Virus record (IMG/VR): IMGVR_UViG_3300017528_000255
Coordinates: 1-53,469 of that record
Strand: one strand, 5' to 3'
Source of the DNA: a virus
DNA length: 53,469 bases
The translations under genes and the position numbers were made by a program. Positions 1-53,469 of this stretch are shown here, piece after piece. Numbering within the stretch: the stretch's first letter is position 1; every line of letters starts with the position of its first letter. The notes beneath the pieces are model-generated. The model did not search any database. It saw only the letters and a list, made by a program, of their open reading frames with translations, and had not been told where the DNA came from.

Positions 1-141
1 ACTACGCACCGAAGCGCATTCCGTACTGAGCTGTCGTACGTACCGAGCCGCAATACCAAGCTAGCCGATCCGCAATCCGTACTGAGCCGCGGTTCGTACT
101 GCATCCCAATCCGTACTGCATCCCAATCCGTACTGAGCCGC
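1..141. repeat. Terminal direct repeat, left copy (circular overlap)
   Basis: Bases 1-141 are identical to 53329-53469. Exactly 141 bases is a usual maximum k-mer of short-read assemblers, so I read this as the overlap of a circular contig rather than a true terminal repeat. The unit-length genome would be 53,328 bp. Confidence 0.9.
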
Positions 142-162
142 GGTTCGTACTGAGCCGCGGTT
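22..162. repeat. 17-bp tandem repeat array beginning CGTACTG
   Basis: Five consecutive 17-bp units run from 78 to 162, all starting CGTACTG. Units at 78-94, 129-145 and 146-162 are CGTACTGAGCCGCGGTT (type A); units at 95-111 and 112-128 are CGTACTGCATCCCAATC (type B), giving the order A-B-B-A-A. Two degenerate units in 17-bp register precede them at 22-38 and 39-55. No spacer-repeat structure is present, so this is not CRISPR. Binding sites for a repressor, replication initiator or partition protein are possible. No ParA/ParB gene was seen. Confidence 0.85.
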
Positions 163-352
163 CCGAATGGTCGGCCACCCGGTACGTACCGCAGCCCAGT
201 ACCGACTGCGGCTCAGTAAATACTGGGGTGGGCCTATACGACAGCCGCGCATCGTTTCGCTACATAGTGTCGTTTTGACCCTAAGGGTGGCGACAATTGA
301 CTACATGCAAAAATCTGCGATTGCTTCATTAAATGGCCACGTCGCCGGATGC

Positions 353-423
353 CACCTGTGGCGCGGTTTCGCAGTCTGGGTGCCCCGGGATGGCGGCCTG
401 GCCCCAAAACCGCGCCACAGGTG
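353..423. repeat. Perfect 17-bp inverted repeat with 37-base spacer
   Basis: Arm CACCTGTGGCGCGGTTT at 353-369 is the exact reverse complement of 407-423. The spacer is itself GC-rich and partly self-complementary. No T-tract follows either arm, so a simple terminator is unlikely. A cruciform, origin-like structure or structured leader RNA fits better. Confidence 0.75.
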
Positions 424-700
424 TGCTCTGGCGCTTTCTGGAGCCCGCCGAGATTGCCGCGAGGTCTGGACTCATCTGCGGTTATGCGATGTCAGCGTGA
501 GATCTCCGATAGGCGTTTTCGAGTCAGGAAAATGCGCTTAGTTCATTCTTGCAGCGCATTTCTTTTCTCACTCTCTATCCCCGTCCCTCAGGGTCCGGGA
601 GATAGAGGTGATCTATCGGACCCAAGCGTGTTCTCGTGTGAACTCCCAAAATGCCGAGTATACGCGGCTCCTGTTTTTAGCTAGCCAGTCACGACTGATC

Positions 701-764: not shown

Positions 765-1331
765 ATGAGTACTCGCCAAAAAAGCGACTTTGGTATAATG
801 GCCCGCGACCTGCGGGTCAAGAAAGGGCTGCGACAACGCCAGGTTGCGCAACTAATCGGGATTGCGCCGTCGACCTACGCCAATCTCGAGTCGTCGCCGA
901 ACCGAGTTATTCGGGAGGATCGGGCCGAACTTCTGGCCAAGGTCCATGGCCTATGCGAAGCGGAGCGAATGGCCCTGATGGATGCCTGGCGCCGGGCGCC
1001 ATTGAGCGAGTACGCCTTGCGTCAACGCGATCGGTGGGCCGCCCGCAACAAGCTCCGCAGCAAGGCGCGCAACTATGACCGGATGCAGCTGGCCCTCGTC
1101 GAGCTCCTCGGGCTGTTCATCGGGTTCGTGCCCAAGCCGGGGTCGTATTGCAACTGCGCGTTTGGCGGCGGCACCGCCGAGGACCCGACGAGGTCATGCG
1201 AGCTGTGCAGCGCGCTCGAGGCGCTCGGCTTCCTCGGTGGGTTCAGCGACAAGGACGAGCTCGTGATGAGGCTCTCGAAAATGCAAGACGAGCTCGAGGC
1301 GAAGCGGTTCAAGGCCCCGCCCCAGAACTGA
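765..1331 (+). CDS. XRE-family helix-turn-helix regulator with cysteine-rich C-terminus
   Basis: A 188-residue protein. Residues about 9-60 read as a Cro/cI-type helix-turn-helix: a GLRQRQVAQLIGI helix pair followed by APSTYANLES. The C-terminal half carries C129, C131, C145 and C148, a possible metal site not usual in simple repressors. The ATG at 765 is chosen over an in-frame GTG at 756 because GGGGTGA lies six bases before it. Standing first after the control region, it probably regulates the lysis-lysogeny or early switch. It lacks a LexA/cI-type S24 peptidase domain, so RecA-triggered self-cleavage is not expected. Confidence 0.8.
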   Translation: MSTRQKSDFGIMARDLRVKKGLRQRQVAQLIGIAPSTYANLESSPNRVIREDRAELLAKVHGLCEAERMALMDAWRRAPLSEYALRQRDRWAARNKLRSKARNYDRMQLALVELLGLFIGFVPKPGSYCNCAFGGGTAEDPTRSCELCSALEALGFLGGFSDKDELVMRLSKMQDELEAKRFKAPPQN

Positions 1332-4992: not shown

Positions 4993-5432
4993 TCTCCGTC
5001 GAGATTACCTGTCCGCGCTGCGCGGGCGCGGGGCACATTCACCCGCCTCCCGCTGATCTGTCGTGGCTGCGCTGCCCGGTCTGCGATGGCATCGGCCGCG
5101 TGTGGGCGCCGGGCGCGCCAAGCTACGGATGCGCGCTGAGGCTCGGCAAATGCAATCGCGGCGACGTGGTCACGCTCGGCAACGGCGATCGCGGGCGCGT
5201 GCTCCGACACGCTAAGGCGGGCACACCCACGACTTGGCTCGGGCTGATCGACGCCTTCGACGATCGCGAGAGCTGGACCCCGACAGCGTATCCCTCGTGC
5301 GTCGGTGTCGCGCTAGTTAGTGTGTTACGTCCGGGCGGGGACACTAACGATCACGCTTCCGACAGATCACGAGATCGGAATGACCCGATGCAACGCGAAA
5401 ACGCTATATTCGGCGCACCGCAGAAAGGGTGA
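4989..5432 (+). CDS. DnaJ-type zinc-ribbon protein
   Basis: GTG at 4989 overlaps the previous stop (GTGA). The N-terminus has CPRCAGAGHI and, 16 residues on, CPVCDGIGRV: two CxxCxGxG motifs typical of the DnaJ central zinc domain and of small phage single-ribbon proteins. A strand-rich middle resembles a small barrel (GDVVTLGNGDRGRVL). The C-terminal 35 residues look disordered. It has no J domain, so it is not a chaperone in itself. Confidence 0.6.
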   Translation: MISVEITCPRCAGAGHIHPPPADLSWLRCPVCDGIGRVWAPGAPSYGCALRLGKCNRGDVVTLGNGDRGRVLRHAKAGTPTTWLGLIDAFDDRESWTPTAYPSCVGVALVSVLRPGGDTNDHASDRSRDRNDPMQRENAIFGAPQKG

Positions 5433-5436
5433 CACC

Positions 5437-5898
5437 ATGGCAAAAGACAGGAAGATCTCCCCAGGTTCGGCCGAACGGGTAAGGAAGATCGCCGAGCACC
5501 AGGACACAATCAGGATCGATCTGCTGCCGAGCGAGGTCGGCGAGGAACGCGAGGCAGTCTGCGAGCTGCTGACTCGGCAAGAGAACCTTGTAGCCGCGCT
5601 CAAGGCCACCAAAGCCGAATACAAGGTCAAGATCGACGCGGTGAAGGCGAAGATCAGTGCGTCACTCGCCGCAGCGGCGACCGAAACCCGCGATCTCAAC
5701 GTCACCGTCGAGGAATGGCTCACTCGCGGCAACGAAATCGTGAGCATCCGGGCCGACACGGGCGAAATGCTCGGCACGCGCACCGCCACGGTCTCTGAGC
5801 TCCAAGAATCGCTGTTTCCGCCGCCTGTGAAGCCGGCCGTCGCGAAAGCCGAGGGCTTCCCGTCGTCGGATGAGGCATTCGGCAATGACGCCTCCTGA
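5437..5898 (+). CDS. Hypothetical coiled-coil protein
   Basis: A 153-residue protein preceded by GAAAGGGTGA. Residues about 37-90 form a long amphipathic helix, probably a coiled coil, followed by a small strand-rich module (VSIRADTGEMLGTRTATVSE) that recalls C-terminal parts of phage-encoded accessory proteins. Function unknown. Confidence 0.6.
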   Translation: MAKDRKISPGSAERVRKIAEHQDTIRIDLLPSEVGEEREAVCELLTRQENLVAALKATKAEYKVKIDAVKAKISASLAAAATETRDLNVTVEEWLTRGNEIVSIRADTGEMLGTRTATVSELQESLFPPPVKPAVAKAEGFPSSDEAFGNDAS

Positions 5899-34492: not shown

Positions 34493-35563
34493 TCACTTTT
34501 CGGCCCCGAGAAGCTCCGCAACGCGCCGGGTCCGGGTCTGCCGCTCGGCTCCGGGCGCCAGGTAGGAGCGCCGGGTCACGGCCACCTTGCCGTGGCCGAG
34601 GGCTTCGGCTACGTGCTCCACGCTGATCGAGCGCTCCGAGATCGTTGCCTGCGTACCGCGGAGCCCCTGCGTGGTCACCTCGGGCACCTTTGCCGCCTTG
34701 GCGATCCGCTTGACGTTGCGGAGGATCCAGTGCCGATCGCAGGGCTTGCCGCGCTCGTTCATCCCGAACAGTGGCTCAAGCGCGAACCGCTTCGCGCACA
34801 TCGCGAGCAAGGGCGCGCGGAACACCTCGGGGATCTCGAGCTGGCGCTCGGCGTTCTTGTTCTTGCCGCGCTCGATCCACAGCACGCGCCCGCCGTCGTC
34901 CACGTCGCGCACCACGCGATCGGTGATCTCGCTTGCTCGGCACCCCATCACGATCGCCATCGCGGCGGCCAGCCCGCCCTTGGTCCCTTCGGCCAGCGCG
35001 GCATCGGTGAACGTGCGCGACTCGTTGATCCGGAGCTGCGCCTTGCCGTGGGCCTTCTGGCCCTCGAGCTCGATCTCGGCGAAGGGATCGCTGGCGAGCC
35101 ATCCCTGCTTGACGCACCAAACGCAGAACGCGCGGACCACGCACAGCTCCCCGAAGACGGTATCGAAGGGCCGGGGCGTGCCGTCGCGCTTGTTCCGTCG
35201 CTTGGCGATCAGCTCACCGGCTGTCTTGGGCGTGAGGGAACGCAGGAGCTGATCGCGCTTGTGGTGGCGCAGCACCGCCTGTAGCCGGTAGCGATCGGTG
35301 GTTACTCCTCGTGCCTTTTTCCCAATCGCCCGCCGGTGCTCGAGGTAGGCGTCGACGGTGGCCGCGATCGTGCGGTTCTCGTGGAGCGCGCGGAGGTATT
35401 TGACGTACGCGAGGGCGGCAGCCTCGCTTGAAAACCCCTGAGGTCCGCCATCGCTTTCGCTCGCATACGTTCGTCGACCGTCAGGGGTGATGACGTAGAC
35501 GCGCCATCGGGCGCGGTGCGCGAAGGGTCCGTAGATTTTGATGCTTCCGTCTCTGGTTGCCAT
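34493..35563 (-). CDS. int: Tyrosine-family site-specific integrase
   Basis: A 356-residue recombinase that inserts the phage at attP. Residues 1-45 form a strand-rich arm-binding domain, about 65-165 the core-binding helices, and the catalytic domain carries R209 (MGCRASEI), K234/K236 (RGKNKN), R302 (QGLRGTQAT), H324 (LGH) and nucleophile Y334 (YLAPG). The usual His of the HxLR box is Gln at 299, a tolerated but less common change. Start: ATG at 35563 with AGGAG seven bases before. Confidence 0.9.
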   Translation of the reverse strand: MATRDGSIKIYGPFAHRARWRVYVITPDGRRTYASESDGGPQGFSSEAAALAYVKYLRALHENRTIAATVDAYLEHRRAIGKKARGVTTDRYRLQAVLRHHKRDQLLRSLTPKTAGELIAKRRNKRDGTPRPFDTVFGELCVVRAFCVWCVKQGWLASDPFAEIELEGQKAHGKAQLRINESRTFTDAALAEGTKGGLAAAMAIVMGCRASEITDRVVRDVDDGGRVLWIERGKNKNAERQLEIPEVFRAPLLAMCAKRFALEPLFGMNERGKPCDRHWILRNVKRIAKAAKVPEVTTQGLRGTQATISERSISVEHVAEALGHGKVAVTRRSYLAPGAERQTRTRRVAELLGAEK

Positions 35564-42673: not shown

Positions 42674-42928
42674 TCAGTCCGGCTTACCGCCCGCGCGCCG
42701 GGCGTTAGCGACGATCTCCGCGGTCGCGTGCTCCAACAGGAGCGCGACCGCGGCCGGCGCGATCCCGAGCTCGACGGCGGTCAAAATCAGCTCCTCCGCG
42801 GTCATGGGCAGCTGCACCGTCGGCTCGCCGCCGCGTGGAATGTACCCATAACGGCGGAGCTGCGCGGTCTCGTCGACGTTGAACGCGACGAGATAGCGCA
42901 CGATGTACTCACCGCCGAGGATTTTCAT
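42674..42928 (-). CDS. Small hypothetical protein (84 residues)
   Basis: Last gene of the leftward operon, ending one base after the opposing nuclease stop. ATG at 42928 overlaps the upstream stop. A short strand part (YIVRYLVAFNVDETAQL) precedes a helical C-terminus (TAEELILTAVELGIAPAAV). No terminator is evident between the converging operons. Confidence 0.5.
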   Translation of the reverse strand: MKILGGEYIVRYLVAFNVDETAQLRRYGYIPRGGEPTVQLPMTAEELILTAVELGIAPAAVALLLEHATAEIVANARRAGGKPD

Positions 42929-43179
42929 CACCGCACCTCCGGGTCCGGTCGGGGATCGAGCGTTATGGCAACTGGCGTGCCCGTCGCCAGCTCGCGCCAG
43001 GCCCCGGCGTCATCGAAGAACACCACGATTCGCTCGTAGGGGACGGGCCATCCGGGCACCAGGATCGCGCGCCCCAGGACAAGGCACAGCCCGCGCCCGG
43101 CTGCATGCGCCACCGCCGCGGGTACGTTCGGCGCGCCCGCGACGGAGACCACCACGCGAGCGCCGACGGGGAAGTTCAT
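42928..43179 (-). CDS. FPEGAR-family small protein, copy 1 (83 residues)
   Basis: ATG at 43179, preceded by GGAGG, begins MNFPVGARVVVSV. The C-terminal part reads FDDAGAWRELATGTPVAITLD. Together with the two upstream neighbours it is one of at least four similar proteins in a row (shared MNFPxGAR start, GAWxE core, TGxPVxITL end). Expected fold is a small all-strand barrel. It is not recognisable as a named family. Confidence 0.65.
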   Translation of the reverse strand: MNFPVGARVVVSVAGAPNVPAAVAHAAGRGLCLVLGRAILVPGWPVPYERIVVFFDDAGAWRELATGTPVAITLDPRPDPEVR

Positions 43180-43415
43180 CGGGCCTCCGGTTCAAGACTG
43201 ATGTCAACTGGACGGCCGGTCCATAGCTCATACCAGGCCCCACTACGTCCACGAAGGAAGATCAGCACCAGATCGTGACCATCGAGCGGCAGGACATCGA
43301 GCGCATCGACCAGCACCGCCATCACCGTGTCATCGGGCGAGGCGCGAAGCACCTTGGCAGGAACAGCGGCCAAGCCGACGGAGACCCGCGCCCGAGCGCC
43401 CTCGGGGAAGTTCAC
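43176..43415 (-). CDS. FPEGAR-family small protein, copy 2 (79 residues)
   Basis: GTG at 43415 with GGAGG upstream; start reads (V)NFPEGARARVSVGL, end reads SGAWYELWTGRPVDISLEP. It overlaps copy 1 by four bases. Strand-rich with a short helix in the middle. A close paralogue of copies 1 and 3. Confidence 0.65.
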   Translation of the reverse strand: MNFPEGARARVSVGLAAVPAKVLRASPDDTVMAVLVDALDVLPLDGHDLVLIFLRGRSGAWYELWTGRPVDISLEPEAR

Positions 43416-43666
43416 AGGGCCTCCGCAGCGTCAAGCGTGATGTTGACGGCCGTCCCGGTGACGAATTCGCGATACGCACCATTGCGATCGACAAACACCG
43501 CGATGACCCACGGGGAAATCCCCTGCATCCCGGGCAGCGGTAGCGGCGCGGCAAACTGAAACCCGCAGGCCGGCTGCCCGATCACCCTGCACCACACCAC
43601 GAGCGCGGGCAGGCTCGTTCCGTCAGGCAGGGTGACCAGCACCCGGGCGCCCTCGGGGAAGTTCAC
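43412..43666 (-). CDS. FPEGAR-family small protein, copy 3 (84 residues)
   Basis: GTG at 43666; the conserved start (V)NFPEGARVLVTLPDGTSLP and end NGAYREFVTGTAVNITLD match copies 1 and 2. A CGFQF in the middle replaces the varied loop of the others. The start was chosen by alignment with its paralogues, trimming 12 residues of open frame. Confidence 0.65.
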   Translation of the reverse strand: MNFPEGARVLVTLPDGTSLPALVVWCRVIGQPACGFQFAAPLPLPGMQGISPWVIAVFVDRNGAYREFVTGTAVNITLDAAEAL

Positions 43667-43845
43667 GGCGTGCCCCCGCCGGCACGTCGCGCGGCGTCCC
43701 ATTCGTCGAGCTCCTCGATCAAGGCCGCAAGGTGACTCTCGAGCGCGGCGCGTTCGGTGGCCGACAGGCCGGGACGCGAGAGCTCTTGTTGGTAGCGAAC
43801 GATCCAGCGCGCGGTAATCCGGCGCTGCGCCTCGCTCTCGATCAT
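43663..43845 (-). CDS. Small helical protein (60 residues)
   Basis: ATG at 43845 overlaps the previous stop. The protein is fully helical with RAALESHLAALIEELDEW, and ends in a Gly-rich tail. It has no similarity to its FPEGAR neighbours. No family recognised. Confidence 0.5.
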   Translation of the reverse strand: MIESEAQRRITARWIVRYQQELSRPGLSATERAALESHLAALIEELDEWDAARRAGGGTP

Positions 43846-44060
43846 CGCCTGGCCGCGCTCACCCCGCCGCCGAGGTGCTCGAGGTGGTTCACGTGCTCGG
43901 TGATCGCGAACGTGACGTCACGCCGCGCGGCCATCTGACCCTTGGCCGTGCCGCGCGCGATCACCTTGCCCGCCCCGGGTCCGGCTGTCACGACCCACGT
44001 GACCGTTCCGTCGGTGTTGCGGGCGATAAGCCATGACGTATTGCCCTTTTCGATGATCAT
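43842..44060 (-). CDS. Small hypothetical protein (72 residues)
   Basis: ATG at 44060 overlaps the upstream stop. Strand-rich start (NTSWLIARNTDGTVTWVVT), then GKVIARGTAKGQMAARRD and a His/Glu-rich end. The double strand hairpin recalls small beta-rich phage proteins. No family recognised. Confidence 0.5.
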   Translation of the reverse strand: MIIEKGNTSWLIARNTDGTVTWVVTAGPGAGKVIARGTAKGQMAARRDVTFAITEHVNHLEHLGGGVSAARR

Positions 44061-44428
44061 GATTTGACCCCTGCAAGTTTGTTGAACAGCTCGACGCGAC
44101 GCTCAAGCTCGAAACCCGCCTGGCGCAGCGTCGCGGCGCCTGCGTAGTCGGTGCAGTCGCACACGCCGAAGCGATGCCCCATGATGCCGAGCATCATGCA
44201 CTCGCGATGCACCACGAGCATCGAGCCCGCCAAAAACTCCCCGAGATCGCCGGCAACGATCGACTCTGCGCACCATGCGCACGGGGCGCCGATCGGCGTC
44301 GGTCGGAAGGTCGCCCGATCGGCGCGCGGGATCCCGGTCCAGTCGCCAAAGATGGGATTGGTGTAGGACAGCTCGAGGAGGTACTCGAGTTCCTCGGTCT
44401 CGATACACTCGCCCTTGTCGGCGGTCAC
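44057..44428 (-). CDS. Cysteine-rich small protein (123 residues)
   Basis: GTG at 44428 overlaps the upstream stop. Residues about 54-105 show CAWCAES, then HRECMM and GVCDC: two CxxC-like pairs with His, a candidate treble-clef or ribbon fold. N-terminal region is acidic. Function unknown. Confidence 0.5.
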   Translation of the reverse strand: MTADKGECIETEELEYLLELSYTNPIFGDWTGIPRADRATFRPTPIGAPCAWCAESIVAGDLGEFLAGSMLVVHRECMMLGIMGHRFGVCDCTDYAGAATLRQAGFELERRVELFNKLAGVKS

Positions 44429-44901
44429 CGGAACCTCAGCGCGACGGGAGCGCCCGTCAGGATCTCGATCCACGTTCCATCATCGTTCTGGTAGATCGGC
44501 AACATGCCCACCGCGGCGGTCGCCGGGAGCTCGACGGTGGCATCGAACGCCAGCGCCAGCGATCGGCCGTTGTCGCTGCGCAGCGCGATCACCGCCGGGA
44601 TCTCCCGGCCACCGACCGTGAGCAGCACGCGAAACCCCTTGCCCGGATTCTTGCGCCGCTCGTCGACGAAGTGACAGAGCTCAGTCGCGACCAGGATCCG
44701 GCGCTCGGGCGCAACCCAGCCCGCGAAGGTCAGGCGATCGGCCGGGTCAAGGGTGTGGCGGGCGAGGTGATCGAGCACCCCGAGGATCAGGTGGAGGCGC
44801 TCGCACAGAGGCGCGGGATTGTCGACGTCCCACGGCAGGCCCTCCAGGGCGGTCAGCAGCGCGTCTTGACCATGCGCGGACAGTCGCAGCGGGTCGAGCA
44901 T
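44425..44901 (-). CDS. FPEGAR-like protein with N-terminal extension, copy 4 (158 residues)
   Basis: ATG at 44901 overlaps the upstream stop. The last ~75 residues (GFRVLLTVGGREIPAVI ... DDGTWIEILTGAPVALRF) follow the same pattern as copies 1-3, although the FPEGAR start is replaced by PGKGFR. The first ~80 residues form a separate helical domain (LHLILGVLDHLARHTLD). It may be the ancestral full-length member. Confidence 0.6.
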   Translation of the reverse strand: MLDPLRLSAHGQDALLTALEGLPWDVDNPAPLCERLHLILGVLDHLARHTLDPADRLTFAGWVAPERRILVATELCHFVDERRKNPGKGFRVLLTVGGREIPAVIALRSDNGRSLALAFDATVELPATAAVGMLPIYQNDDGTWIEILTGAPVALRFR

Positions 44902-45833
44902 CACAGCACCGAATCCTTGTCCGCGGCCAGCGCCTTGCGGCCCTCGTCGGTGATCTCGAATACGCCCGGCTCGACGGTGCGCGCGTGCTTGTGGGCGACG
45001 CGCACCAGGAGGCGACGGCGGGCGGCGTCGCGCGAGATCTTCATCGCGCTCGCGAGGCTCTCGACGCCAAGCCGCCCGCCGTCGGCGACCGCGAGCGCGG
45101 CCAGCGCGTCACGACCCGCGAGCCAGGAGCGGAGAAAGGCGGTCTCCATGAGCGTCTCGGGGGCCGTGCGCGGGGCCGCCCCGTTCTGCTTGTGGCCGTT
45201 CTGCTCGCTTCGGGGCGAAGGCTTGCGGCGGATCACGGCAGGCGGCGCGGATGGCGCCACGACCGGCGCCGGGGGCGCGGGTTCGTAGTCCTCGACGACG
45301 GGCGAATCCTTGTCGGCGGCTAGCGCCCTGCGGCCAGCAGGTGTGATCTCGAACAGGGCGGTAGCTTGGTCGATGAGGCGCAAGTGGCCATGCTGTCTAC
45401 GGACCTTGCACCTCCACATCGCGGCGCTGCGAGCGAGCTTGAGGCGGGCCGCGATCCGTTCCAGCGCGAGCCGCCCGCCAGGGCTGCCGACGAGCAGCGC
45501 CAGCACCTCCTTCCCCGTGTTCCAGCTTTTGAATCCCTCTTGAGAGTTCGGCGTCGCCCGCTTGCGCGGCGGCCTCTGCCGGCCGAGCTCCGGGTCCTTG
45601 AATGGCCTCCCCTTCTTCTTGGGCGACGCGGGCGACGCGGGCGACGCGGGCGACGCCGTCGCTGGGGCAGGCGGCCCCGCGTCGCCACAGGCGGTCAAAA
45701 GGGCCTGATAGGCAGTGCCCAGCGTGGGCAATGCAGGGAAGGTATCGCGCAGCTCAGCAATTTCCTGAGTTAGCTCTCGCAGCCTCGGGCGCACCCCCGC
45801 GAGTGCGTACTGCCGCAATTTGTCTCTGTCCAT
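44901..45833 (-). CDS. Protein with duplicated winged-helix-like domains
   Basis: A 310-residue protein starting at ATG 45833, preceded by GGGAGG. Two similar ~75-residue domains occupy about residues 100-175 and 230-308; both contain GGRLxxExxAxxxKxxRxAA-type helices and end with FEITxxGRRALAADKDS or FEITDEGRKALAADKDS. A coiled-coil start and an Ala/Pro-rich linker with repeated SPASPA dipeptides complete it. Duplicated DNA-binding domains fit a regulator of the downstream operon. An upstream GTG at 45893 is possible but lacks a binding site. Confidence 0.65.
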   Translation of the reverse strand: MDRDKLRQYALAGVRPRLRELTQEIAELRDTFPALPTLGTAYQALLTACGDAGPPAPATASPASPASPASPKKKGRPFKDPELGRQRPPRKRATPNSQEGFKSWNTGKEVLALLVGSPGGRLALERIAARLKLARSAAMWRCKVRRQHGHLRLIDQATALFEITPAGRRALAADKDSPVVEDYEPAPPAPVVAPSAPPAVIRRKPSPRSEQNGHKQNGAAPRTAPETLMETAFLRSWLAGRDALAALAVADGGRLGVESLASAMKISRDAARRRLLVRVAHKHARTVEPGVFEITDEGRKALAADKDSVL

Positions 45834-46102
45834 CCGGGCCTCCCGCTCGTCGACGAATACGCGGCGAGCTACCCAGAGAGCTAACCCCAACACGCTAGGA
45901 AAATCAAATTGCCAGCTCAGAGAAAAACCGCCGTACGTGCCGCGCTGTGCAGCAGTACGGCAATTTTTCTGTGAGCTGGCCAGCGCCTATCGAGACGCTA
46001 GAGCACAGAGGGCAATAGGTGGGCGCCGCCACGCCCCCGCCCGGGTCGGAACGTGTCGGCCCGAGAGCTTTACAGGCCCTGGTTCGCCCGGGCCGGACGC
46101 TA
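45834..46102. promoter_or_regulatory. Intergenic region between two leftward operons
   Basis: About 270 bases without a gene. It contains the large dyad at 45911-45980 described separately. A promoter for the gene at 45833 probably lies between 45840 and 45910, but I could not assign boxes with confidence. Confidence 0.45.
45911..45980 (-). terminator. Nested dyad / likely terminator of the right-arm operon
   Basis: Outer arms 45911-45927 and 45964-45980 pair in 16 of 17 positions; inner arms GCCGTAC (45930-45936) and GTACGGC (45955-45961) pair perfectly. On the minus strand GTACGGCGG is followed by TTTTTCTC, and on the plus strand GTACGGCAA by TTTTTCT, so both strands read like a terminator. 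The inner arms carry the same GTAC core as the repeat region at 1-162. Confidence 0.6.
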
Positions 46103-46429
46103 TCACACGTGATAGAGCAGCTGTAGACCGTACACGCCGCTCTCGGTCTCGCAGACCACGAACGACACGCGCGCGCCGCTCGATAGCGTCAGAACCGGAT
46201 CGCACACGGTGTGACCACGCCCGTCGGGAAACGGGTGCAGATCGAGCCCGACGATCGTGTGACCGACGAGGAGCGCCGCGAGCTCGACGGGGCGGGTCAC
46301 CACGCCGCCGCGCTGACACCAGCACTCGCACTCGGGCACGAGGCACGGGCGAACGCGCCGGAACCCGTGGCCGCGGGCGCAGCGCGCGCACAAGAGCGGC
46401 GATTCACCCTCGGGCGGTGAGCGGTTCAT
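46103..46429 (-). CDS. Zinc-ribbon-like small protein (108 residues)
   Basis: ATG at 46429 overlaps the upstream stop. The first 45 residues hold CARC then PCLVPECECWCQRG, a dense cysteine cluster typical of metal ribbons. The second half is strand-rich (VVGLDLHPFPDGRGHTV) and may be a small barrel. No named family. Confidence 0.5.
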   Translation of the reverse strand: MNRSPPEGESPLLCARCARGHGFRRVRPCLVPECECWCQRGGVVTRPVELAALLVGHTIVGLDLHPFPDGRGHTVCDPVLTLSSGARVSFVVCETESGVYGLQLLYHV

Positions 46430-46620
46430 GGCTTGGCCTTTCCGCGTGCGGTGTCGATCAGGTCGGCCAAGTGGTGCAACTGATCCCACGGAATCGATAG
46501 CGACCCGGCAATCCGATCGTGATGGTTGTGGAGATGGATCGTGGCGAACATGCGCAGCGAGTCGACCTCGACCGTCACATTGCCCGATCTATTGCGCTGT
46601 ACTGGCCTCATCGCCTTCAC
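46426..46620 (-). CDS. Small hypothetical protein (64 residues)
   Basis: Start GTG at 46620 (another GTG three bases earlier, ATG at 46611). The protein reads strand-rich NVTVEVDSLRMFATIHLHN then IPWDQLHHLADLIDTARG. No family recognised. Stop overlaps the next ATG. Confidence 0.5.
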   Translation of the reverse strand: MKAMRPVQRNRSGNVTVEVDSLRMFATIHLHNHHDRIAGSLSIPWDQLHHLADLIDTARGKAKP

Positions 46621-46625
46621 CACGG

Positions 46626-46979
46626 CTAGATCTCCACCGGGGGCAGGGACGAGATACACGCGTCTTGACACTTGTCCGCGCCGACGAGTGCCGCCACGCG
46701 CTTGATTGCGCCCACCACGTACTCGCCCGCCTCGAGCACGACGCCCGCGCGGCGGTTGCGCTCGCCTTCCCATTGCGTGTCGTGGCCGCCGTAGACGATG
46801 GTGCGCCCGTCAGCATGCTGGCGGACCTTGAGCCACCACACGCGGGTCGCGTCGCTGTAATTGCGCTCCGCGTACCAGGTCGATTGTGCGATGACGGGCC
46901 AATCTGCGTCGCGGATCCGGACCGGCGCCGCGTCGGTGAGGGTGATGGTTCGTGATTTGGATTCTTCTGTGGTTGCCAT
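46626..46979 (-). CDS. Small hypothetical protein (117 residues)
   Basis: ATG at 46979 after a conserved leader (CAGGATACGACA type). The centre DWPVIAQSTWYAERNYSD with VWWLKVRQHADGRTIVYG resembles small phage proteins of DUF-type with aromatic patches. C-terminus is strand/helix with two Cys. Function unknown. Confidence 0.5.
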   Translation of the reverse strand: MATTEESKSRTITLTDAAPVRIRDADWPVIAQSTWYAERNYSDATRVWWLKVRQHADGRTIVYGGHDTQWEGERNRRAGVVLEAGEYVVGAIKRVAALVGADKCQDACISSLPPVEI

Positions 46980-47011
46980 TGTCGTATCCTGTCCTGTCTG
47001 TGGTTGTTGCG
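46980..47011 (-). promoter_or_regulatory. Leader module, gene 46626-46979
   Basis: On the minus strand CAGGACAGGATACGAC precedes the ATG; AGGA-type binding site with the C/A-rich upstream common to this arm. Confidence 0.6.
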
Positions 47012-47020
47012 TCGGTCAGT

Positions 47021-47037
47021 GCACCGGGGACCGGTGC
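47021..47037 (-). other. Hairpin GCACCGG-GGA-CCGGTGC
   Basis: Perfect 7-bp stem with a three-base loop between two genes. A shorter copy with the same ACCGGGGACCGGT core is at 50941-50953. Both lie after a stop codon and before a leader module. Confidence 0.6.
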
Positions 47038-47062
47038 AGCCGATGGGCGCAACGCCCGGGGG

Positions 47063-47374
47063 TCATCCGTACTTGACGCCTTCGAAGCATGCGAGCTGTA
47101 CCAGCACGTCGGCGGTGGTCGCGTCGCCGTCGCCGGCCATCAAGTCGGCGAAGTGTTTGGGCGCCTTGTGGGCCATCTGCGACAGCGCTCGGGGCCAGTC
47201 GTCGGCCCCGATGCTGTGGCAGGTGCCCGTTTCGCTTTCGACGAAGCCGACGCACAGCGGGTGCACGGGATCTCGCTTGACCCGGTGGCACCAGTTGCGC
47301 ATCACGCCGCTCTCGATCGCGTCGGCGATGGTGTCGGCGATGAGCTGGTTCGAGACCGCGATGGTGACGATCAC
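47063..47374 (-). CDS. Small hypothetical protein (103 residues)
   Basis: ATG at 47374 overlaps the upstream stop. Helical start (SNQLIADTIADAIESG), then a central Cys/His-containing part (HPLCVGFVES and GTCHSIG). Unknown. Confidence 0.5.
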   Translation of the reverse strand: MIVTIAVSNQLIADTIADAIESGVMRNWCHRVKRDPVHPLCVGFVESETGTCHSIGADDWPRALSQMAHKAPKHFADLMAGDGDATTADVLVQLACFEGVKYG

Positions 47375-47730
47375 GGGGTCGCCTTCCTGCTCTGCATTAG
47401 GCCGCGCACCTTGCGGTCATGCTCGTTCAGCGCGGCCATGCACACGAGCGCCTCGACTTCGGTGCATGTCGCGATCGTATGCCAGTGATCGGCGATGGCC
47501 GGGTGTAGCCGTTCCACGTGCCACGAGTCGAGCACTTGCCGGAGTCGGTAGCGCGGCGGCTCGGGCATTCGGTAGCGCGTGTATTCCGGCGCGGGTTCGA
47601 TGGTGCGCTCGATGGTACCCTCGCGACACATCCCGACGAGGACGCGCGTGAACTGGTGCTTCACGACGGCCGGCGACCCGTAGGAGGCAAGCGTCGAGTT
47701 AACGAGGTCGCGCAACTGGCCGTTGGTCAT
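47371..47730 (-). CDS. Small hypothetical protein (119 residues)
   Basis: ATG at 47730 with GGAGATCG upstream inside the previous gene's end. The N-terminus GQLRDLVNSTLASYGSPAVV has a helix-turn-helix look, followed by basic and aromatic segments. It may bind DNA, but no family is certain. Confidence 0.5.
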   Translation of the reverse strand: MTNGQLRDLVNSTLASYGSPAVVKHQFTRVLVGMCREGTIERTIEPAPEYTRYRMPEPPRYRLRQVLDSWHVERLHPAIADHWHTIATCTEVEALVCMAALNEHDRKVRGLMQSRKATP

Positions 47731-47732
47731 GG

Positions 47733-47930
47733 CTACACGATCTCCTGATCGTCGCCGGTGATGACGGCCTCGACGACGCCCGCGGCGTTGCTCGCGCCGA
47801 TGAGGTAGCCGCGACCGACGATAGAGAATGCGTAGTCGATGCCGTACTCCCGAAACAGCGCGTTGCGTAGGGACTCGATAGCCTCAGCAACGGGGCGTGT
47901 GGTGGGGTGTCCGGGGCGTGCGGTGGTCAT
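47733..47930 (-). CDS. Small hypothetical protein (65 residues)
   Basis: ATG at 47930 immediately after a 44-base leader identical to that of the gene at 48295-48525. Helix (VAEAIESLRNALFREYGID) followed by strands (AFSIVGRGYLIGASN). Unknown. Confidence 0.55.
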   Translation of the reverse strand: MTTARPGHPTTRPVAEAIESLRNALFREYGIDYAFSIVGRGYLIGASNAAGVVEAVITGDDQEIV

Positions 47931-47974
47931 GGTCTGTATCCTGTCCTGTGGTGTGAGTAGGTTGAAAGATGGGA
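47922..47974 (-). repeat. 53-bp direct repeat, copy 1 (leader and start codon)
   Basis: Identical to 48517-48569. The repeat covers the start codon, the AGGACAGGATACAGACC binding-site region and the C/A-rich leader. Duplicated control modules allow copy-paste of genes between them. Confidence 0.9.
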
Positions 47975-47989
47975 GATGGTGACGGGCAG

Positions 47990-48298
47990 CTAGGAGCATT
48001 CGCAATCGTCGCCCGCTTCATCGACGCCATCGGTGCATTCGTCGCCCCGGTCGTCCTCGCAGACCTCGGGCACGTGCACCTTGCGGACGGGCGGGGCCTT
48101 GACCCGCGGTGGCGCGACCACGACCGGGGCGTCCGGGTCAGCGTGGCCGATCTCGCCGAATTCCTCCCACCACGGGGCGGGGCCGTCGTGCTCGCCCAAG
48201 AACGCATCGTCCGAGGGGTCGTCCTCGATGAGCGCGAGCGTGGGGCTGTGCAGCGACAGCACGAGCGACAGCACGCGGGCCGCGAGCGAGGCGATCAC
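47990..48298 (-). CDS. Small acidic protein with hydrophobic start (102 residues)
   Basis: GTG at 48298 overlaps the upstream stop. The first 25 residues are hydrophobic (ASLAARVLSLVLSLHSP), followed by strongly acidic segments and a Cys-containing end (GDDCECS). A membrane anchor or signal-like start is possible. Unknown. Confidence 0.5.
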   Translation of the reverse strand: MIASLAARVLSLVLSLHSPTLALIEDDPSDDAFLGEHDGPAPWWEEFGEIGHADPDAPVVVAPPRVKAPPVRKVHVPEVCEDDRGDECTDGVDEAGDDCECS

Positions 48299-48525
48299 GA
48301 GCGCACCTGGGTGAGCATGTAGTACTGTCCGCCCTGGCCTGTGATTGTCTCGGTGGGGCTGCGTACGCGCTTGTACTTGTCGCCCTCGCAGTGCGCCGCA
48401 CGGCCAAAGCCGCCGTAGGCTACTTCGGTGTGTTGCCCCTGGTTCCGGGCGGGGACGTCGAAGCGGACGCCCTCGGGAACCTGCGATGCGGGGATTCGGA
48501 TGTACTCGTACTTGGTGGTGGTCAT
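48295..48525 (-). CDS. Small hypothetical protein (76 residues)
   Basis: ATG at 48525, the second gene with the 53-bp leader. Strand-rich protein ending QGGQYYMLTQVRS. Unknown function. Confidence 0.55.
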   Translation of the reverse strand: MTTTKYEYIRIPASQVPEGVRFDVPARNQGQHTEVAYGGFGRAAHCEGDKYKRVRSPTETITGQGGQYYMLTQVRS

Positions 48526-48569
48526 GGTCTGTATCCTGTCCTGTGGTGTGAGTAGGTTGAAAGATGGGA
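48517..48569 (-). repeat. 53-bp direct repeat, copy 2 (leader and start codon)
   Basis: Identical to 47922-47974, 595 bases away. The two genes it precedes share no obvious coding similarity beyond MTT at the start, so only the control module was duplicated or kept identical. Confidence 0.9.
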
Positions 48570-48625
48570 TTCGGTCCTTGCAACGGGCGACGGCGTCGCA
48601 CGCTCCAAGGGCCAAAGCCCGGCGT

Positions 48626-49003
48626 CTAGTCGCCGAGGGTCGCGAACTCGTGGCGCGAACCGTGGAGCTTCGTGCCGCAGCAGTCGCACGGGCGCGTCGA
48701 GAAATCGTGAATCCCGCGGCCGGTCTCGCTGTCGTTGTCGGGCACGAGGTGCGCACCGAGCCGCTCGAGTCCCGCGGTGATCTCGGCCTCGCGTCGGTCG
48801 GCCTCGGACCGTGGCCCGTGGCGATCGTCGGCCTCGGAGCGACAGTACGGGCACACGTGGGGCGCGCGGCCGGTACCCTCACGAGTGCAGGTCAGACAGC
48901 GCCAGTTGCTGCCGTAGTGGTAGTCAAGGCCGGTGAAGTCGCCGTTGACAGCGGCGATCAGGCAGTCCTCGCAGAGCAGGATACCGTCGCGGATGACCTT
49001 CAC
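48626..49003 (-). CDS. Multi-CxxC zinc-ribbon protein (125 residues)
   Basis: GTG at 49003 overlaps the upstream stop. Cysteine pairs CEDC, CLTC, CPYC and CDCC are spaced along the protein, two ribbons at least. No named family. Similar cysteine-rich small proteins occur at 3494-3994 and 46103-46429. Confidence 0.55.
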   Translation of the reverse strand: MKVIRDGILLCEDCLIAAVNGDFTGLDYHYGSNWRCLTCTREGTGRAPHVCPYCRSEADDRHGPRSEADRREAEITAGLERLGAHLVPDNDSETGRGIHDFSTRPCDCCGTKLHGSRHEFATLGD

Positions 49004-49431
49004 GATTGCACCTCGTAGCCACCGGTCGACTCGTTCCACGCGACGAACCGCGACAGCGCCGCGGTGTAGCGCTCGGCGATGACCGCGCGGCAACCGTTCC
49101 GGTCGGGACCTTGCACGGCGACGGCGATCCCGCACCACGCGGGGCGCGCGGTGATCTTGTGGCGGGTCACGCTCGCGCCATCGTCGGTGTAGTGGTGGAA
49201 TTCACACAGCAGCATAATCCGGGCCTCGGTGACTGACACGGTCTGCGCGGCGGCCAGTCCGTCACCCGTGGGCAAGAGCTCGCGGAGTTGGACGATGCGC
49301 CGGGTCCAGCCCGCGACCCCGGTAGCGTCGCGTGCGGCGACGGAGGTGCGGCGCGCCGCGGTGCACGCGGCAAGCTTTGCAGCGAGCGACGTTGCGCGCT
49401 GGGCGTCGCTGAGTTCGAGAGTGATAGTCAT
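49000..49431 (-). CDS. Small hypothetical protein (143 residues)
   Basis: ATG at 49431 after an AGGATACACCA leader. Helical first half (DAQRATSLAAKLAACTAARR) and strand-rich second half with VTRHKITARPAWCG. Unknown. Confidence 0.55.
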   Translation of the reverse strand: MTITLELSDAQRATSLAAKLAACTAARRTSVAARDATGVAGWTRRIVQLRELLPTGDGLAAAQTVSVTEARIMLLCEFHHYTDDGASVTRHKITARPAWCGIAVAVQGPDRNGCRAVIAERYTAALSRFVAWNESTGGYEVQS

Positions 49432-49456
49432 TGGTGTATCCTGGTGTGAGTGGTTA
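49432..49456 (-). promoter_or_regulatory. Leader module, gene 49000-49431
   Basis: Minus-strand CCACTCACACCAGGATACACCA before the ATG, written here in parts: a C/A-rich run, then AGGATACACCA. Same pattern as 52737-52765. Confidence 0.6.
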
Positions 49457-49517
49457 TTGGCCGGTGATGTACGCGTAGAGCTCTGCGGCCGTGGGGTTCT
49501 CGAGGGCGACGCCGGGG

Positions 49518-50102
49518 TTACTTGACTCCGAGGCGAAGCATCAACTCGGCCACAGGGTCACCATCGGCGACACCGCGCAAGATGCCTGACCGCATGTCGC
49601 CGGCCATATACTCCGCTGCGGTAGAGCCAACCTTGTTGACCGGCCGCTCCATGCGGGCCGCGAGCGCCGCTGCATCGCGCTTGTAGGTGTGGGCAGCGGC
49701 GCGAGCCTGCTTGAGCATACGCGTTGAGCCATTCCCCTCCCACGATTCAAGCGGCGCCTTGCAACCGTGCTCGTAGCAGGCAATCGCCGTCATGGTGTTG
49801 CGCAGCGTGTTGCGAGGGTCGCCTGAGATTTCGTGCCCGACACCCTCGGTGTCCAACTCGAAACCCGACGAGCGCCACGCTGACTCCTGCTCTTTGGCCG
49901 GGATGGCGTCGAGATCGACAAGCGCAAGCTCGACGACGTAGGTCGGGCGGCCTTCGTTGTCGCGACCGCATGCGTCGTCCATGTTGGTGAGCTCAATCAC
50001 CTGGTACTGACGACCGGTGGTGCGGCGGTACCATTTGCCGCCGTAGTCTTGCGGGTTGACATCGCCGCTGTACTGCCAATGAGTGTCGTTCTTCGTAGCC
50101 AT
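49518..50102 (-). CDS. Hypothetical protein (194 residues)
   Basis: ATG at 50102, two bases after the upstream stop. The N-terminus WYRRTTGRQYQVIELTNM with YVVELALVDLDAIP looks like a strand-rich domain; the rest is helical. A +1-frame extension of 29 codons lies past its stop. Unknown. Confidence 0.55.
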   Translation of the reverse strand: MATKNDTHWQYSGDVNPQDYGGKWYRRTTGRQYQVIELTNMDDACGRDNEGRPTYVVELALVDLDAIPAKEQESAWRSSGFELDTEGVGHEISGDPRNTLRNTMTAIACYEHGCKAPLESWEGNGSTRMLKQARAAAHTYKRDAAALAARMERPVNKVGSTAAEYMAGDMRSGILRGVADGDPVAELMLRLGVK

Positions 50103-50104
50103 GG

Positions 50105-50662
50105 TTACGCCACCCGTCCCATCGACTCGGCCTTGATCACGATGCGGTCGTGCACACTGGCCTCCGGATCCTCGTCGTAGACCTCGCCCGCATCGTCACC
50201 GCCGTAGGCGACAGCCGCGTCGCGGTCCCACGTGAGCACGTCGATGCTGACGTTCGCACGGCCCGACATCGCGATGGCGACCGCGAAGCCTGCCGCCGCG
50301 TCGGGCGTCTTGAAAATGCGCTCCCTGCCGCTGCAATCGTCGACGGCATACTCGAGGTTCGGCACGGGGTACGAGGTCGGGGGCTCGACTTGGACGAACG
50401 CAAAGCCGAGCTCGTCCGGCAGTGAGCCGCAGACCAGGTGATTGCGCTCGTCCCACCCCAATTTCGCCATGAGCGCGAGCGCCGCTGCGGCGTGGTTCTC
50501 GCGGATGTCGAGCGCGTCGTCCCAGTCGACGGTGACGGTCATGGCGACGCAGGTGGCGATTACGGATTGAGAGCCGGCATCGTCGGTGACCCGGGCACGG
50601 GTGGTGATGGCCTGGCGTGAGGTGAGGCCGGTAAGCTGTGCGAGAGTCTGAGACTTAGTCAT
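50105..50662 (-). CDS. Hypothetical protein (185 residues)
   Basis: ATG at 50662. A helix-turn-like start (TLAQLTGLTSRQAITTRARV) leads to a strand-rich middle with TVTVDWDDALDIRENHAA and FAFVQVEPPTSYPVP. Larger than its neighbours. No family recognised. Confidence 0.55.
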   Translation of the reverse strand: MTKSQTLAQLTGLTSRQAITTRARVTDDAGSQSVIATCVAMTVTVDWDDALDIRENHAAAALALMAKLGWDERNHLVCGSLPDELGFAFVQVEPPTSYPVPNLEYAVDDCSGRERIFKTPDAAAGFAVAIAMSGRANVSIDVLTWDRDAAVAYGGDDAGEVYDEDPEASVHDRIVIKAESMGRVA

Positions 50663-50684
50663 GTGCGTTGTCCTGTGGTTGTGG
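50663..50684 (-). promoter_or_regulatory. Leader module, gene 50105-50662
   Basis: Minus-strand ACCACAGGACAACGCAC precedes the ATG, a weaker variant of the AGGACAGGATAC leader. Confidence 0.45.
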
Positions 50685-50891
50685 TTAGTAGGTGAGTGGG
50701 TTGTACTTGCCGCCGACGACGTACGGCCCCCACATGGTCAGGCCGCCGCTCGTGATCTCCACCGAGGTGTCGAGGTCAGCGAAGCGGTACACGCTGAGCG
50801 CGTGGGCGCGGGCCTCCTCGTACGTGGAGTGAGCCTTGTGGTTGACGCGGCTCGAGCCGGTGTTGCTGACGACGTGGAATAGGTAGCGCAT
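50685..50891 (-). CDS. Small hypothetical protein (68 residues)
   Basis: ATG at 50891 with leader AAGGATACAGACC. Start MRYLFHVVSNTGSSRV is strand-rich, then a helix with EEARAHALSVYRFADL. Unknown, possibly a small alpha/beta fold. Confidence 0.55.
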   Translation of the reverse strand: MRYLFHVVSNTGSSRVNHKAHSTYEEARAHALSVYRFADLDTSVEITSGGLTMWGPYVVGGKYNPLTY

Positions 50892-50953
50892 GGTCTGTAT
50901 CCTTGGTGATGGGGTTTGAGACGTGGTGTCCGGCGAACCGACCGGGGACCGGT
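50892..50953 (-). promoter_or_regulatory. Leader module and hairpin, gene 50685-50891
   Basis: Minus-strand CATCACCAAGGATACAGACC before the ATG, with the ACCGGGGACCGGT hairpin (50941-50953) just upstream. Confidence 0.55.
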
Positions 50954-50981
50954 AAGCTCGACGGGCACAAAGGCCCTGTGA

Positions 50982-51230
50982 CTAGACGACGTTGTCGAGG
51001 AAGCTCTGCAGCTTGTCGGCGAAGGCGGCCGAGGCGCACGGGAACGCCGAGTGGCCGCCTTCCTGGTCGGCTGCGACGTCGTCGGCCCATTGCGACATCT
51101 CGTGCTCGGCAAGGCTGGCGACGCCCGTGTCGCGGTCGACGGCCTGCCAGAGCACGTCCGGCCACGAGTAGCGGCCACGGAGGATTTCGAGCGCGGAGAT
51201 TTCAGAGCGGGTGAGCGTGATGGTGTACAT
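50982..51230 (-). CDS. Small hypothetical protein (82 residues)
   Basis: ATG at 51230 with leader CAGGACAGACC. Start MYTITLTRSEISALEILRGR and a Trp-rich centre (YSWPDVLWQAVDRD). Unknown. Confidence 0.5.
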   Translation of the reverse strand: MYTITLTRSEISALEILRGRYSWPDVLWQAVDRDTGVASLAEHEMSQWADDVAADQEGGHSAFPCASAAFADKLQSFLDNVV

Positions 51231-51262
51231 GGTCTGTCCTGTGGGTGATGGGGTTGACGCGG
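51231..51262 (-). promoter_or_regulatory. Leader module, gene 50982-51230
   Basis: Minus-strand CAACCCCATCACCC then ACAGGACAGACC before the ATG. It shares CAACCCCATCACC with the leader at 50892. Confidence 0.5.
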
Positions 51263-51305
51263 TCGGAAGATTCGAAGCGGTGACGGGGTAGCGTAACATG
51301 CGGGC

Positions 51306-51467
51306 CTAGTAGCCGAGCGCTTCACGGGCGGCCCGGAGCGTCGTGATGGCGTGGTGGGTGCCGTCGTGGCTGGTGAACCGCACCCGACCGTCGACGATGA
51401 CGGGCTCGGCCAGGAGGCCGTGCGAGGCGACGAAGCGTTGCAGCTGCACCAGGTTGTAGTGCGTCAC
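51306..51467 (-). CDS. Small hypothetical protein (53 residues)
   Basis: GTG at 51467 overlaps the upstream stop (GTGA). A helix (NLVQLQRFVASHGL) is followed by strands (EPVIVDGRVRFTSHDG). Unknown; the coupling supports translation. Confidence 0.45.
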   Translation of the reverse strand: MTHYNLVQLQRFVASHGLLAEPVIVDGRVRFTSHDGTHHAITTLRAAREALGY

Positions 51468-51793
51468 GAGCCCTCGACCGTGAACCGGAACCAGAAGCAC
51501 GGCTGTTCGTCGTCGGCGTTCGAGGCGAGCGACCCGTCCGTGAGCTCGTTGCCGTGCGCGTCGACCGGCCAGAACCGGGCGGTGTCGTCGAGCTCGTCCA
51601 GGGCGAGCGCGGTGAGCTCCGCGGCGGTGACACCCTCGGGCATGTCGTCATCGTCGAGCGCTTCCTCGGCGGCTTCCGCTGCGATCTCCGCGGCGGTCTG
51701 CCCCGTGCCGGGGATACCGACCAGGATGCCGGTCAGGTCGGAGAGGTAGTCAGAGAAGCAGTGGTCGACGTAGGTGCAGGTGACCGTGGTCAT
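51464..51793 (-). CDS. Small acidic protein (109 residues)
   Basis: ATG at 51793 overlaps the upstream stop (TAATG). The middle is highly acidic (EAAEEALDDDDMPEGV and ALALDELDD), giving a strongly negative protein that could mimic DNA. The C-terminus has aromatic FWFRFTVE. Small acidic phage proteins of this type are often anti-defence or anti-restriction factors. That role is inference. Confidence 0.5.
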   Translation of the reverse strand: MTTVTCTYVDHCFSDYLSDLTGILVGIPGTGQTAAEIAAEAAEEALDDDDMPEGVTAAELTALALDELDDTARFWPVDAHGNELTDGSLASNADDEQPCFWFRFTVEGS

Positions 51794-51987
51794 TACGACA
51801 CCAACGAGCGGGTGAAGGGGTTGGAGGCCATCTCCGAGGCGAGCTCGGCCTTGTCGGCCTCGTACTGGACGGCGTAGTCCGCGAGGCGGTGCTCCGAGGA
51901 GCCGCGAGCGAAGCGGGGTGATGCGACCGAGGTGGACGCGTTGAGCTGTGCGGTGACGAGGACGAGGTAGTTGCTGGTGGTGTTCAT
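51793..51987 (-). CDS. Small hypothetical protein (64 residues)
   Basis: ATG at 51987 after a leader with CAGGATATCCG. Strand start (NYLVLVTAQLNAST), then a helix with SEHRLADYAVQYEADKAEL. Unknown. Confidence 0.5.
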   Translation of the reverse strand: MNTTSNYLVLVTAQLNASTSVASPRFARGSSEHRLADYAVQYEADKAELASEMASNPFTRSLVS

Positions 51988-52020
51988 CGGATATCCTGTA
52001 CAGGTGTTGATGGGTTGAGT
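51988..52020 (-). promoter_or_regulatory. Leader module, gene 51793-51987
   Basis: Minus-strand ACTCAACCCATCAACACC, then TGTACAGGATATCCG before the ATG: AGGAT binding site and the C/A-rich upstream. Confidence 0.55.
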
Positions 52021-52094
52021 GACTGATGTCTGGTAGAGCACCGAGCGAGGGCTCGGGGCTCTACCGGGTACCAGTCGAGTACCGTCGTTGAGTG

Positions 52095-52736
52095 CTAGTT
52101 CCAGGCTTCGGTCATGTGGCGCTTGACCGTGGGGCAGCTGTCGATACCGGGGATCCAGGTGAACAGGTCGGCCAGCGGGGCGCCGTAGCGGCGACCGAGG
52201 CGGCCAGCGGTGCGGGCTGCTTGCCCGGCCTCGGCTAGGCTGCCGATGCGCTCGGCGCTGACCGCGAGGCGGCCGGCCTTCACTGCCTTGGCGTATGCCT
52301 TCGGGCCGTCGGCCATCTCGGCGCGGCGGGCCGCTTGCGCTTGGCGCTCGTACTCGGCGCGGGCTGCGCGGTCAGCGTCGCGGCGGTCGCGCTCGGCCTG
52401 CTCGGCCTGCAGCACCCGGCGCTCGGTGACACACCAGAGGTTCCACTTGAGGTTCTCGAGGGCGGTGCGCCACTCAGCGCACCAAGTGTAGTGCGCCTCC
52501 GACTTGAGCTCCGAGGGGCTGCGGCGCGACCGGAAGCTCTCGTATTGCGACTCTGCAGCGGGCGCTGCCTTCGGGGCCTGCTTGGCCTTGGGCGCTGACT
52601 TGGCCTTGGGAGCCGGCTCAGTGACGGGCTTGGCGCCCTTGGTGGCTGCCTCGGCTGCCTTCTGTGCGTTGCGCCATGCGGTGTACTCGGCCTGATTGGT
52701 GGGGGGCGTCTGCTTGCGGGTGCTGGTGTTGCTCAT
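52095..52736 (-). CDS. Lysine/alanine/proline-rich protein, first gene of the right-arm operon
   Basis: A 213-residue protein from ATG 52736. The N-terminal ~65 residues are low complexity with repeated APKAK/PKAKQ/PKAAP units, reminiscent of histone H1-like tails. A helical, Arg/Glu-rich region (about 95-150: ERRVLQAEQAERDRRDADR) and a basic C-terminus follow. It could be a nucleoid- or DNA-binding protein expressed first after infection. Role inferred; no family assigned. Confidence 0.55.
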   Translation of the reverse strand: MSNTSTRKQTPPTNQAEYTAWRNAQKAAEAATKGAKPVTEPAPKAKSAPKAKQAPKAAPAAESQYESFRSRRSPSELKSEAHYTWCAEWRTALENLKWNLWCVTERRVLQAEQAERDRRDADRAARAEYERQAQAARRAEMADGPKAYAKAVKAGRLAVSAERIGSLAEAGQAARTAGRLGRRYGAPLADLFTWIPGIDSCPTVKRHMTEAWN

Positions 52737-52844: not shown

Positions 52845-53134
52845 GCTGTGTAGTGGTGTGGTGGGGGGCTCTCTCCCCGGCGAGCGTGTCCCGTACTGGT
52901 CCAGGCGGATGGCCTGTAACGGTCGGGGTGCTGTGCAGGGAGTCGGCTATTCAGTTGTCAGGGTGCGCCGTACTGGACCGGGGTTCTACTCCGCCGCTTC
53001 CCGCCGCCGCCGGTTCTCGTTCGTCGCAAAAACAAGATTCGTCCGATTGGCAATTCCGTCAGGTGCCGATCGGGTACCACCCTCGGGGATCTCCAGTTTC
53101 GCGGCCTTTTTTCGATTTTTTGCAGATCTGATCA
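52845..53134. promoter_or_regulatory. Right part of the non-coding control region
   Basis: About 290 bases without a supported gene. CCGTACTGG occurs at about 52889 and 52967. Near 53085-53125 there are two T-runs in GGCCTTTTTTCGATTTTTTG. The leftward operon promoter should be here, but no clear boxes were fixed. Confidence 0.45.
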
Positions 53135-53328
53135 AGTACAGTACTGCGCGCCTGTACTGCCCAGCTGCTCCTGTACTGGGCTGCGCACCTGTACTCCTCT
53201 ACTGGGGTACTGTACCAGGCTGTACCCATGTACCTGTTCACACCTGTACTCCTGGAGCCCTGTACTCCAGTACTGTCACCTGTACTCCAGTACTCCAGTA
53301 CTCCAGTACTGTACTCCCGGAGTTCTGT
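53135..53328. repeat. GTACT repeat cluster
   Basis: At least 14 GTACT motifs lie in about 195 bases, mostly in CCTGTACTCC or CAGTACTCC contexts. Three perfect 8-bp tandem units TACTCCAG run 53283-53306, and AGTAC-A-GTACT (53135-53145) is a perfect dyad. On the circle it runs directly into the 17-bp array at 22-162. Confidence 0.85.
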
Positions 53329-53469
53329 ACTACGCACCGAAGCGCATTCCGTACTGAGCTGTCGTACGTACCGAGCCGCAATACCAAGCTAGCCGATCCG
53401 CAATCCGTACTGAGCCGCGGTTCGTACTGCATCCCAATCCGTACTGCATCCCAATCCGTACTGAGCCGC
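53329..53469. repeat. Terminal direct repeat, right copy (circular overlap)
   Basis: Exact copy of bases 1-141. Joining the ends places the repeat cluster at 53135-53328 directly before the 17-bp repeats at 22-162, making one continuous non-coding region. Confidence 0.9.

Follow-up and report, generated by a model that had tools for sequence, protein, structure and literature searches.

A dense array of direct GTACT sites in the divergent control region of a contractile-tailed phage, tentatively read as a lineage-specific operator

Described repeat arrays and the present locus

In phages of the Mu type, the repressor acts on multiple operator sites located between divergent promoters. The locus described here, a dense array of GTACT sites, resembles this arrangement in having several close sites in a control region between divergent transcription units, whereas it has another core sequence and another number of sites than Mu, and no DDE transposase was recognised in the phage. 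Iteron origins of the plasmid Rep and phage P1 type are also similar to it in their direct repeats, a period that is partly 17 bp and an adjoining T-rich stretch. However, no initiator gene was recognised alongside the array, the GC skew does not indicate it, and the replication genes are common to relatives that lack the array. In cluster A mycobacteriophages such as L5 and Bxb1, stoperators of 13 bp, mostly placed away from promoters and numbering up to about 30 per genome in one orientation, are bound by the phage repressor and differ between related phages (PMC6550527). Our array shares with these stoperators and operators the many copies of a short asymmetric site in one orientation, repressor binding being a prediction here, but its sites are gathered in a single intergenic region, with no excess of copies elsewhere over expectation. 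A further likeness is to the parS arrays of extrachromosomal mycobacteriophages, since those of RedRock consist of direct repeats of an 8-bp unit (PMC7157519); there, however, parS belongs to a parABS cassette, whereas the present phage has an integrase, no ParA was found in it and the periods are mixed (8, 16 and 17 bp). Nothing relevant on GTACT repeats in phages emerged from a literature search.

Composition and surroundings of the array

The window, that is the whole stretch of DNA analysed, comprises 53,469 bases and represents an entire virus record, known only from environmental DNA. Its last 141 bases are identical to its first 141 (53329-53469 being a copy of 1-141), and in three related records the ends repeat over 127, 127 and 123 bp. 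Because we take repeats of such lengths to be assembler k-mer overlaps, all four records were treated as circular maps and not as molecules with biological terminal repeats, which gives a window circle of 53,328 bp. The gene calls, together with profile scans, identified it as a contractile-tailed phage with a rightward block of genes (terminase, portal, major head protein, sheath, tape measure and baseplate). Its replication and recombination module comprises a DnaB-like helicase, a primase, an exonuclease and a RecT-like protein with a weak match, and small orphan genes make up a leftward block that extends up to 52736. The phage is probably temperate. A search of prokaryote genomes found no relative. 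Within a 1019-aa gene of the tail region, 90 bp are duplicated exactly in tandem at 25169-25339 (1.9 copies, 100%).

The clustering of GTACT is real and extreme. Both strands of the linear record contain 85 copies, compared with 27.6 ± 6.2 in shuffled sequences, and a stretch of 356 bp across the circle junction (53135-53328 joined to 1-162) holds 20 GTACT on the plus strand, 6 AGTAC and 26 GTAC. The earlier note had reported more than 20 GTACT motifs in about 360 non-coding bases, where fewer than one would be expected by chance. This count is correct if both strands are taken together (26), 0.22 GTACT per strand would be expected from the density elsewhere in the genome, and the gene calls leave the stretch non-coding, the gap reaching from the start of a leftward gene at 52736 to an XRE gene at 765. 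Dinucleotide shuffling of the array gave 1.8 ± 1.3 copies, with a maximum of 8 in 5000 shuffles, all other 356-bp windows had at most 4, and in a genome-wide scan for repeated 6-mers the array was the top repeat cluster (z about 26). As a whole it spans about 52893 to about 219, its density falling off. Dispersed copies in the leftward block were considered as extra sites and rejected, because their number (17 observed vs 16.3 ± 1.8 after synonymous shuffling) is the one expected from codon usage. GTAC is low in the rightward-block coding genes of the window (59 vs 88 expected); avoidance of GTAC in structural genes was rejected as a signature of the motif, GGCC, CCGG, CTAG and TTAA being low likewise.

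The repeats fall into an 8-bp family, GTACTCCA, which forms a perfect short tandem run of 3.6 copies at 53282-53310, and an adjoining 17-bp family, CGTACTGAGCCGCGGTT, at 78-163. Both had been described in the earlier note and were found again, as were its two outlying copies (cf. Table 1). Furthermore, a 36-bp unit is present twice in the array at 86% identity, and the right half contains additional GTAC copies (at 23, 36, 40, 182, 186 and 199) and imperfect dyads (8-45/180-217 and 119-161/188-230), GTAC dyads forming the tail of the array to about 219. All 22 aligned GTACT sites (52893 to 147) are on the plus strand in direct orientation, and AGTAC in the array mostly overlaps GTACT as the palindrome AGTACT. 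Conservation among the aligned sites is confined to GTACT, a C at -2 and G/C at +5 (C-N-GTACT-[G/C]). In the 17-bp units, CGTACTG is invariant in five distinct unit types that differ at 1 to 9 of the other ten positions, and the run of invariant columns has a P value of 0.006 in this small test. An invariant core with divergent spacers apparently points to constrained sites more than to decaying duplicates.

Table 1 Features of the array, its surroundings and the candidate proteins (window coordinates)
Feature	Position	Strand	Remark
First gene of leftward orphan block, 213 aa	52095..52736	-	No family match; left border of region
Two outlying 23-bp copies with CCGTACTGG (52893, 52970)	52883..52982	+	Between array and leftward gene block
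Left array half, 8/16-bp-periodic	53135..53328	+	Runs across circle junction into base 1
Right array half	1..220	+	17-bp units at 79, 96, 113, 130, 147
Inverted repeat, 42-nt arms, 74% complementary	343..433		Between array and XRE1
Hairpin 5' of XRE1	555..640		Different-sequence hairpin at similar place in each relative
XRE1, HTH_3 regulator, Cys-rich C-terminal half	765..1331	+	Kept in 3/3 relatives; right border of region
XRE2, CI-like HTH_3 protein, 104 aa	2787..3101	+	In window phage only; putative reader of the array
Tyrosine integrase	34493..35563	-	In window phage only among four phages

The array sits in a divergent intergenic region, with the leftward block on one side and XRE1 on the other. 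A T-rich stretch at 53085-53140 has 55% AT as compared with 33% AT for the genome, and the area around XRE1 is AT-rich in all four phages. Looking for sigma-70-like promoters in the region gave none, which counts against an operator there, although the promoters of the host may differ. The inverted repeat between the array and XRE1 has an RNA fold z of -4.7, and the relatives are without a counterpart of such length. In each of the four phages a hairpin with pyrimidine and purine arms, different in sequence every time, lies about 140-200 nt upstream of the XRE1 start (555-640 in the window, 3821-3858 in L018, 3802-3847 in L017 and 3799-3842 in L016). Elsewhere in the window, a long inverted repeat at 45911-45980, flanked by T-rich and A-rich sequence, is likely a two-way terminator, and its inner arms do contain GTAC, as had been stated.

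Relatives without the array and candidate binding proteins

Searches by terminase and by alignment identified three full-length, circular relatives (G001, G003 and G004) and one fragment; a nucleotide search of a phage collection gave no match, and portal-based and XRE1-only searches gave no confirmed relative. The structural genes and those for the helicase, the primase, RecT and the exonuclease follow the gene order of the window in all three relatives, with protein identities of roughly 35-65%, and XRE1 occupies the same divergent locus in each. The GTACT array is absent from all three, which suggests that it arose or was acquired recently. Neither a tyrosine integrase nor a serine recombinase was found in these relatives, the leftward block (42674-52736) has no match in them, and each has one HTH_3 gene as against two in the window phage. 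Of the four syntenic phages, the window phage is thus alone in having the array, a second HTH_3 protein and an integrase. The earlier note had regarded relatives that lack the array while keeping all else as evidence against its reading. Only the first half of that description applies, for the integrase, the second XRE gene and the leftward block are missing along with the array. A different repeated word at the corresponding locus was also looked for in the relatives and given up, G004 showing nothing and G001 a weak signal, while the CG runs of G003 (z about 11) are ambiguous, being palindromic and low-complexity.

Some other features of these genomes were recorded. GATC is far above the synonymous-shuffle expectation in the rightward-block coding genes of the window (415 vs 272), G001, G003 and G004, and TTAA and CTAG tend to be low in the coding genes of the same four. 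In the leftward genes of L017 and L016, near-identical sequence, e.g. CATGGTGCGTGTCTCCT in L016, was seen by eye before several start codons within one phage.

If the array is read by a protein of the phage, XRE1 and the helicase and primase are poor candidates, because all are kept in relatives without the array. The HTH recognition region of XRE1 is similar in the three array-less relatives, and XRE1 is unlikely to be the reader of the GTACT motif. In its C-terminal half, a CxC...CExC cysteine pattern is kept in the aligned relatives. XRE2 is a better candidate and the most plausible predicted binder, its lineage specificity matching that of the array. This pairing gives a lead but no proof, given that one phage is compared with three and that the leftward block is equally unique to it; among the orphan proteins, the predicted structure of that encoded at 44901-45833 (pLDDT 44.5) was too poor for use.

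GTACT arrays also exist in other viral contigs. Scans with 8-bp and 17-bp patterns retrieved 46 stretches in total (32 in one scan and 14 in the other), in mixed contexts with no shared regulator apparent; the scans covered the GTACT core alone, and these arrays therefore cannot show GTACT to be special. In L052 (reverse-strand coordinates), an array of 8-bp spacing at 4792-4852 lies just upstream of a ParA-like gene at 4916-5788. The 17-bp arrays of L058 (10073-10222, plus strand) and L064 (4352-4441, reverse-strand coordinates) are near related terminase-like genes, and the two contigs differ in GC content. Four contigs of an unrelated lineage (L022, L034, L042 and L044) have long noncoding stretches of GTACTCAGG/GTACTGTGG words, and L042 and L044 carry methyltransferase-like genes.

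Possible roles of the array

We tentatively favour, with a probability of roughly 0.4, a reading in which the array serves as a multi-site operator, specific to this lineage, within the main control region, most plausibly for XRE2 as the immunity repressor. The mechanism that we infer would be as follows: (i) a phage-encoded DNA-binding protein, most plausibly XRE2, would recognise C-N-GTACT-[G/C]; (ii) it would bind the many direct copies cooperatively, at spacings of 8/16 bp and 17 bp; and (iii) the bound array would repress or otherwise control divergent promoters, namely those presumed for the leftward block (first gene at 52736) and for the rightward XRE1/late block (from 765). Many copies of one asymmetric site, all in one orientation, are what an operator array of this kind should contain, but the genome-wide dispersal typical of stoperators is missing here, the outside copies matching the synonymous-shuffle expectation. 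Several points speak against the operator reading or its assignment to XRE2. Any orphan gene of the leftward block could encode the binder, the sites are mostly direct repeats, unlike the dyads that CI/XRE dimers usually bind, and XRE2 is encoded 3 kb from the array with no array copy at its own start. The earlier note had proposed many sites for one protein; this agrees with the direct orientation of the sites, their invariant core with divergent spacers and their location between divergent blocks, whereas the same evidence does not single out the protein or decide between operator, origin and centromere.

A less likely but still plausible alternative is that the array is mostly the product of neutral expansion, in which slippage and unequal exchange would have generated a minisatellite-like cluster of recent origin and little, if any, function. 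The three relatives with an array-free locus would be in keeping with such an origin, as would the perfect short tandem runs, the repeated 36-bp unit and the pure 8-bp GTACT tandems that other viral contigs carry in no obvious context. However, the spacing is irregular, the 17-bp period is common to two unrelated spacer types, and divergence is seen in the spacers but not in the core, whereas decay should affect both equally.

Replication-origin iterons, where an initiator would bind the direct repeats and open the AT-rich stretch for the DnaB-like helicase and the primase of the phage, are likewise a less probable but plausible alternative. The 17-bp direct repeats are non-coding and adjoin the T-rich stretch, as expected of iterons, the phage encodes its own helicase and primase, and the RNA of 1-240 folds with unusual stability (z -4.6). 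Against this, the relatives without the array retain the whole replication module, helicase and primase included, and profile scans gave no initiator or Rep match and no DnaA box was found. The minimum of the cumulative GC skew lies about 14 kb to the left of the locus in the window phage, where the cumulative skew instead peaks near the locus, and it is off the locus in all relatives too. The GC-skew check suggested in the earlier note, which had named an initiator as one possible reader, hence does not place a conventional origin at the array.

A packaging (pac) site or another DNA-processing site, read by the small terminase, is very unlikely: GTACT arrays of 17-bp spacing adjoin terminase genes in L058 and L064, but the large terminase gene of the window phage is 6.7 kb away and is kept (59-64%) in relatives without the array. 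Least probable of all is a centromere-like parABS partition site, as in extrachromosomal cluster A prophages, which the 8-bp direct-repeat form of RedRock parS (PMC7157519) and the array directly 5' of the ParA-like gene in the unrelated contig L052 bring to mind, but which is disfavoured, although the earlier note had listed it, by a ParA ATPase profile (PF13614) silent in all four phages and positive in control genomes, an RHH_1 profile without a hit in the window phage, the lack of ParA and RHH matches in protein-by-protein Pfam scans, and the presence of the tyrosine integrase. These Pfam scans of single proteins showed no ParB match.

The operator reading may be carried further, to a version that we regard as improbable: the more than 20 direct GTACT sites, densely clustered, would form an immunity locus at which the repressor nucleates and spreads over the control region, gained together with the integrase by an otherwise integrase-less lineage, so that lysogeny would have been acquired as a module that brought its own address on the DNA. 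If the array is an operator, the four phages of the same backbone, one of which has the array, a second repressor and an integrase, would provide a test of the gain and loss of a lysogeny control region, and the locus would yield a GTACT-reading protein whose sites are legible from sequence.
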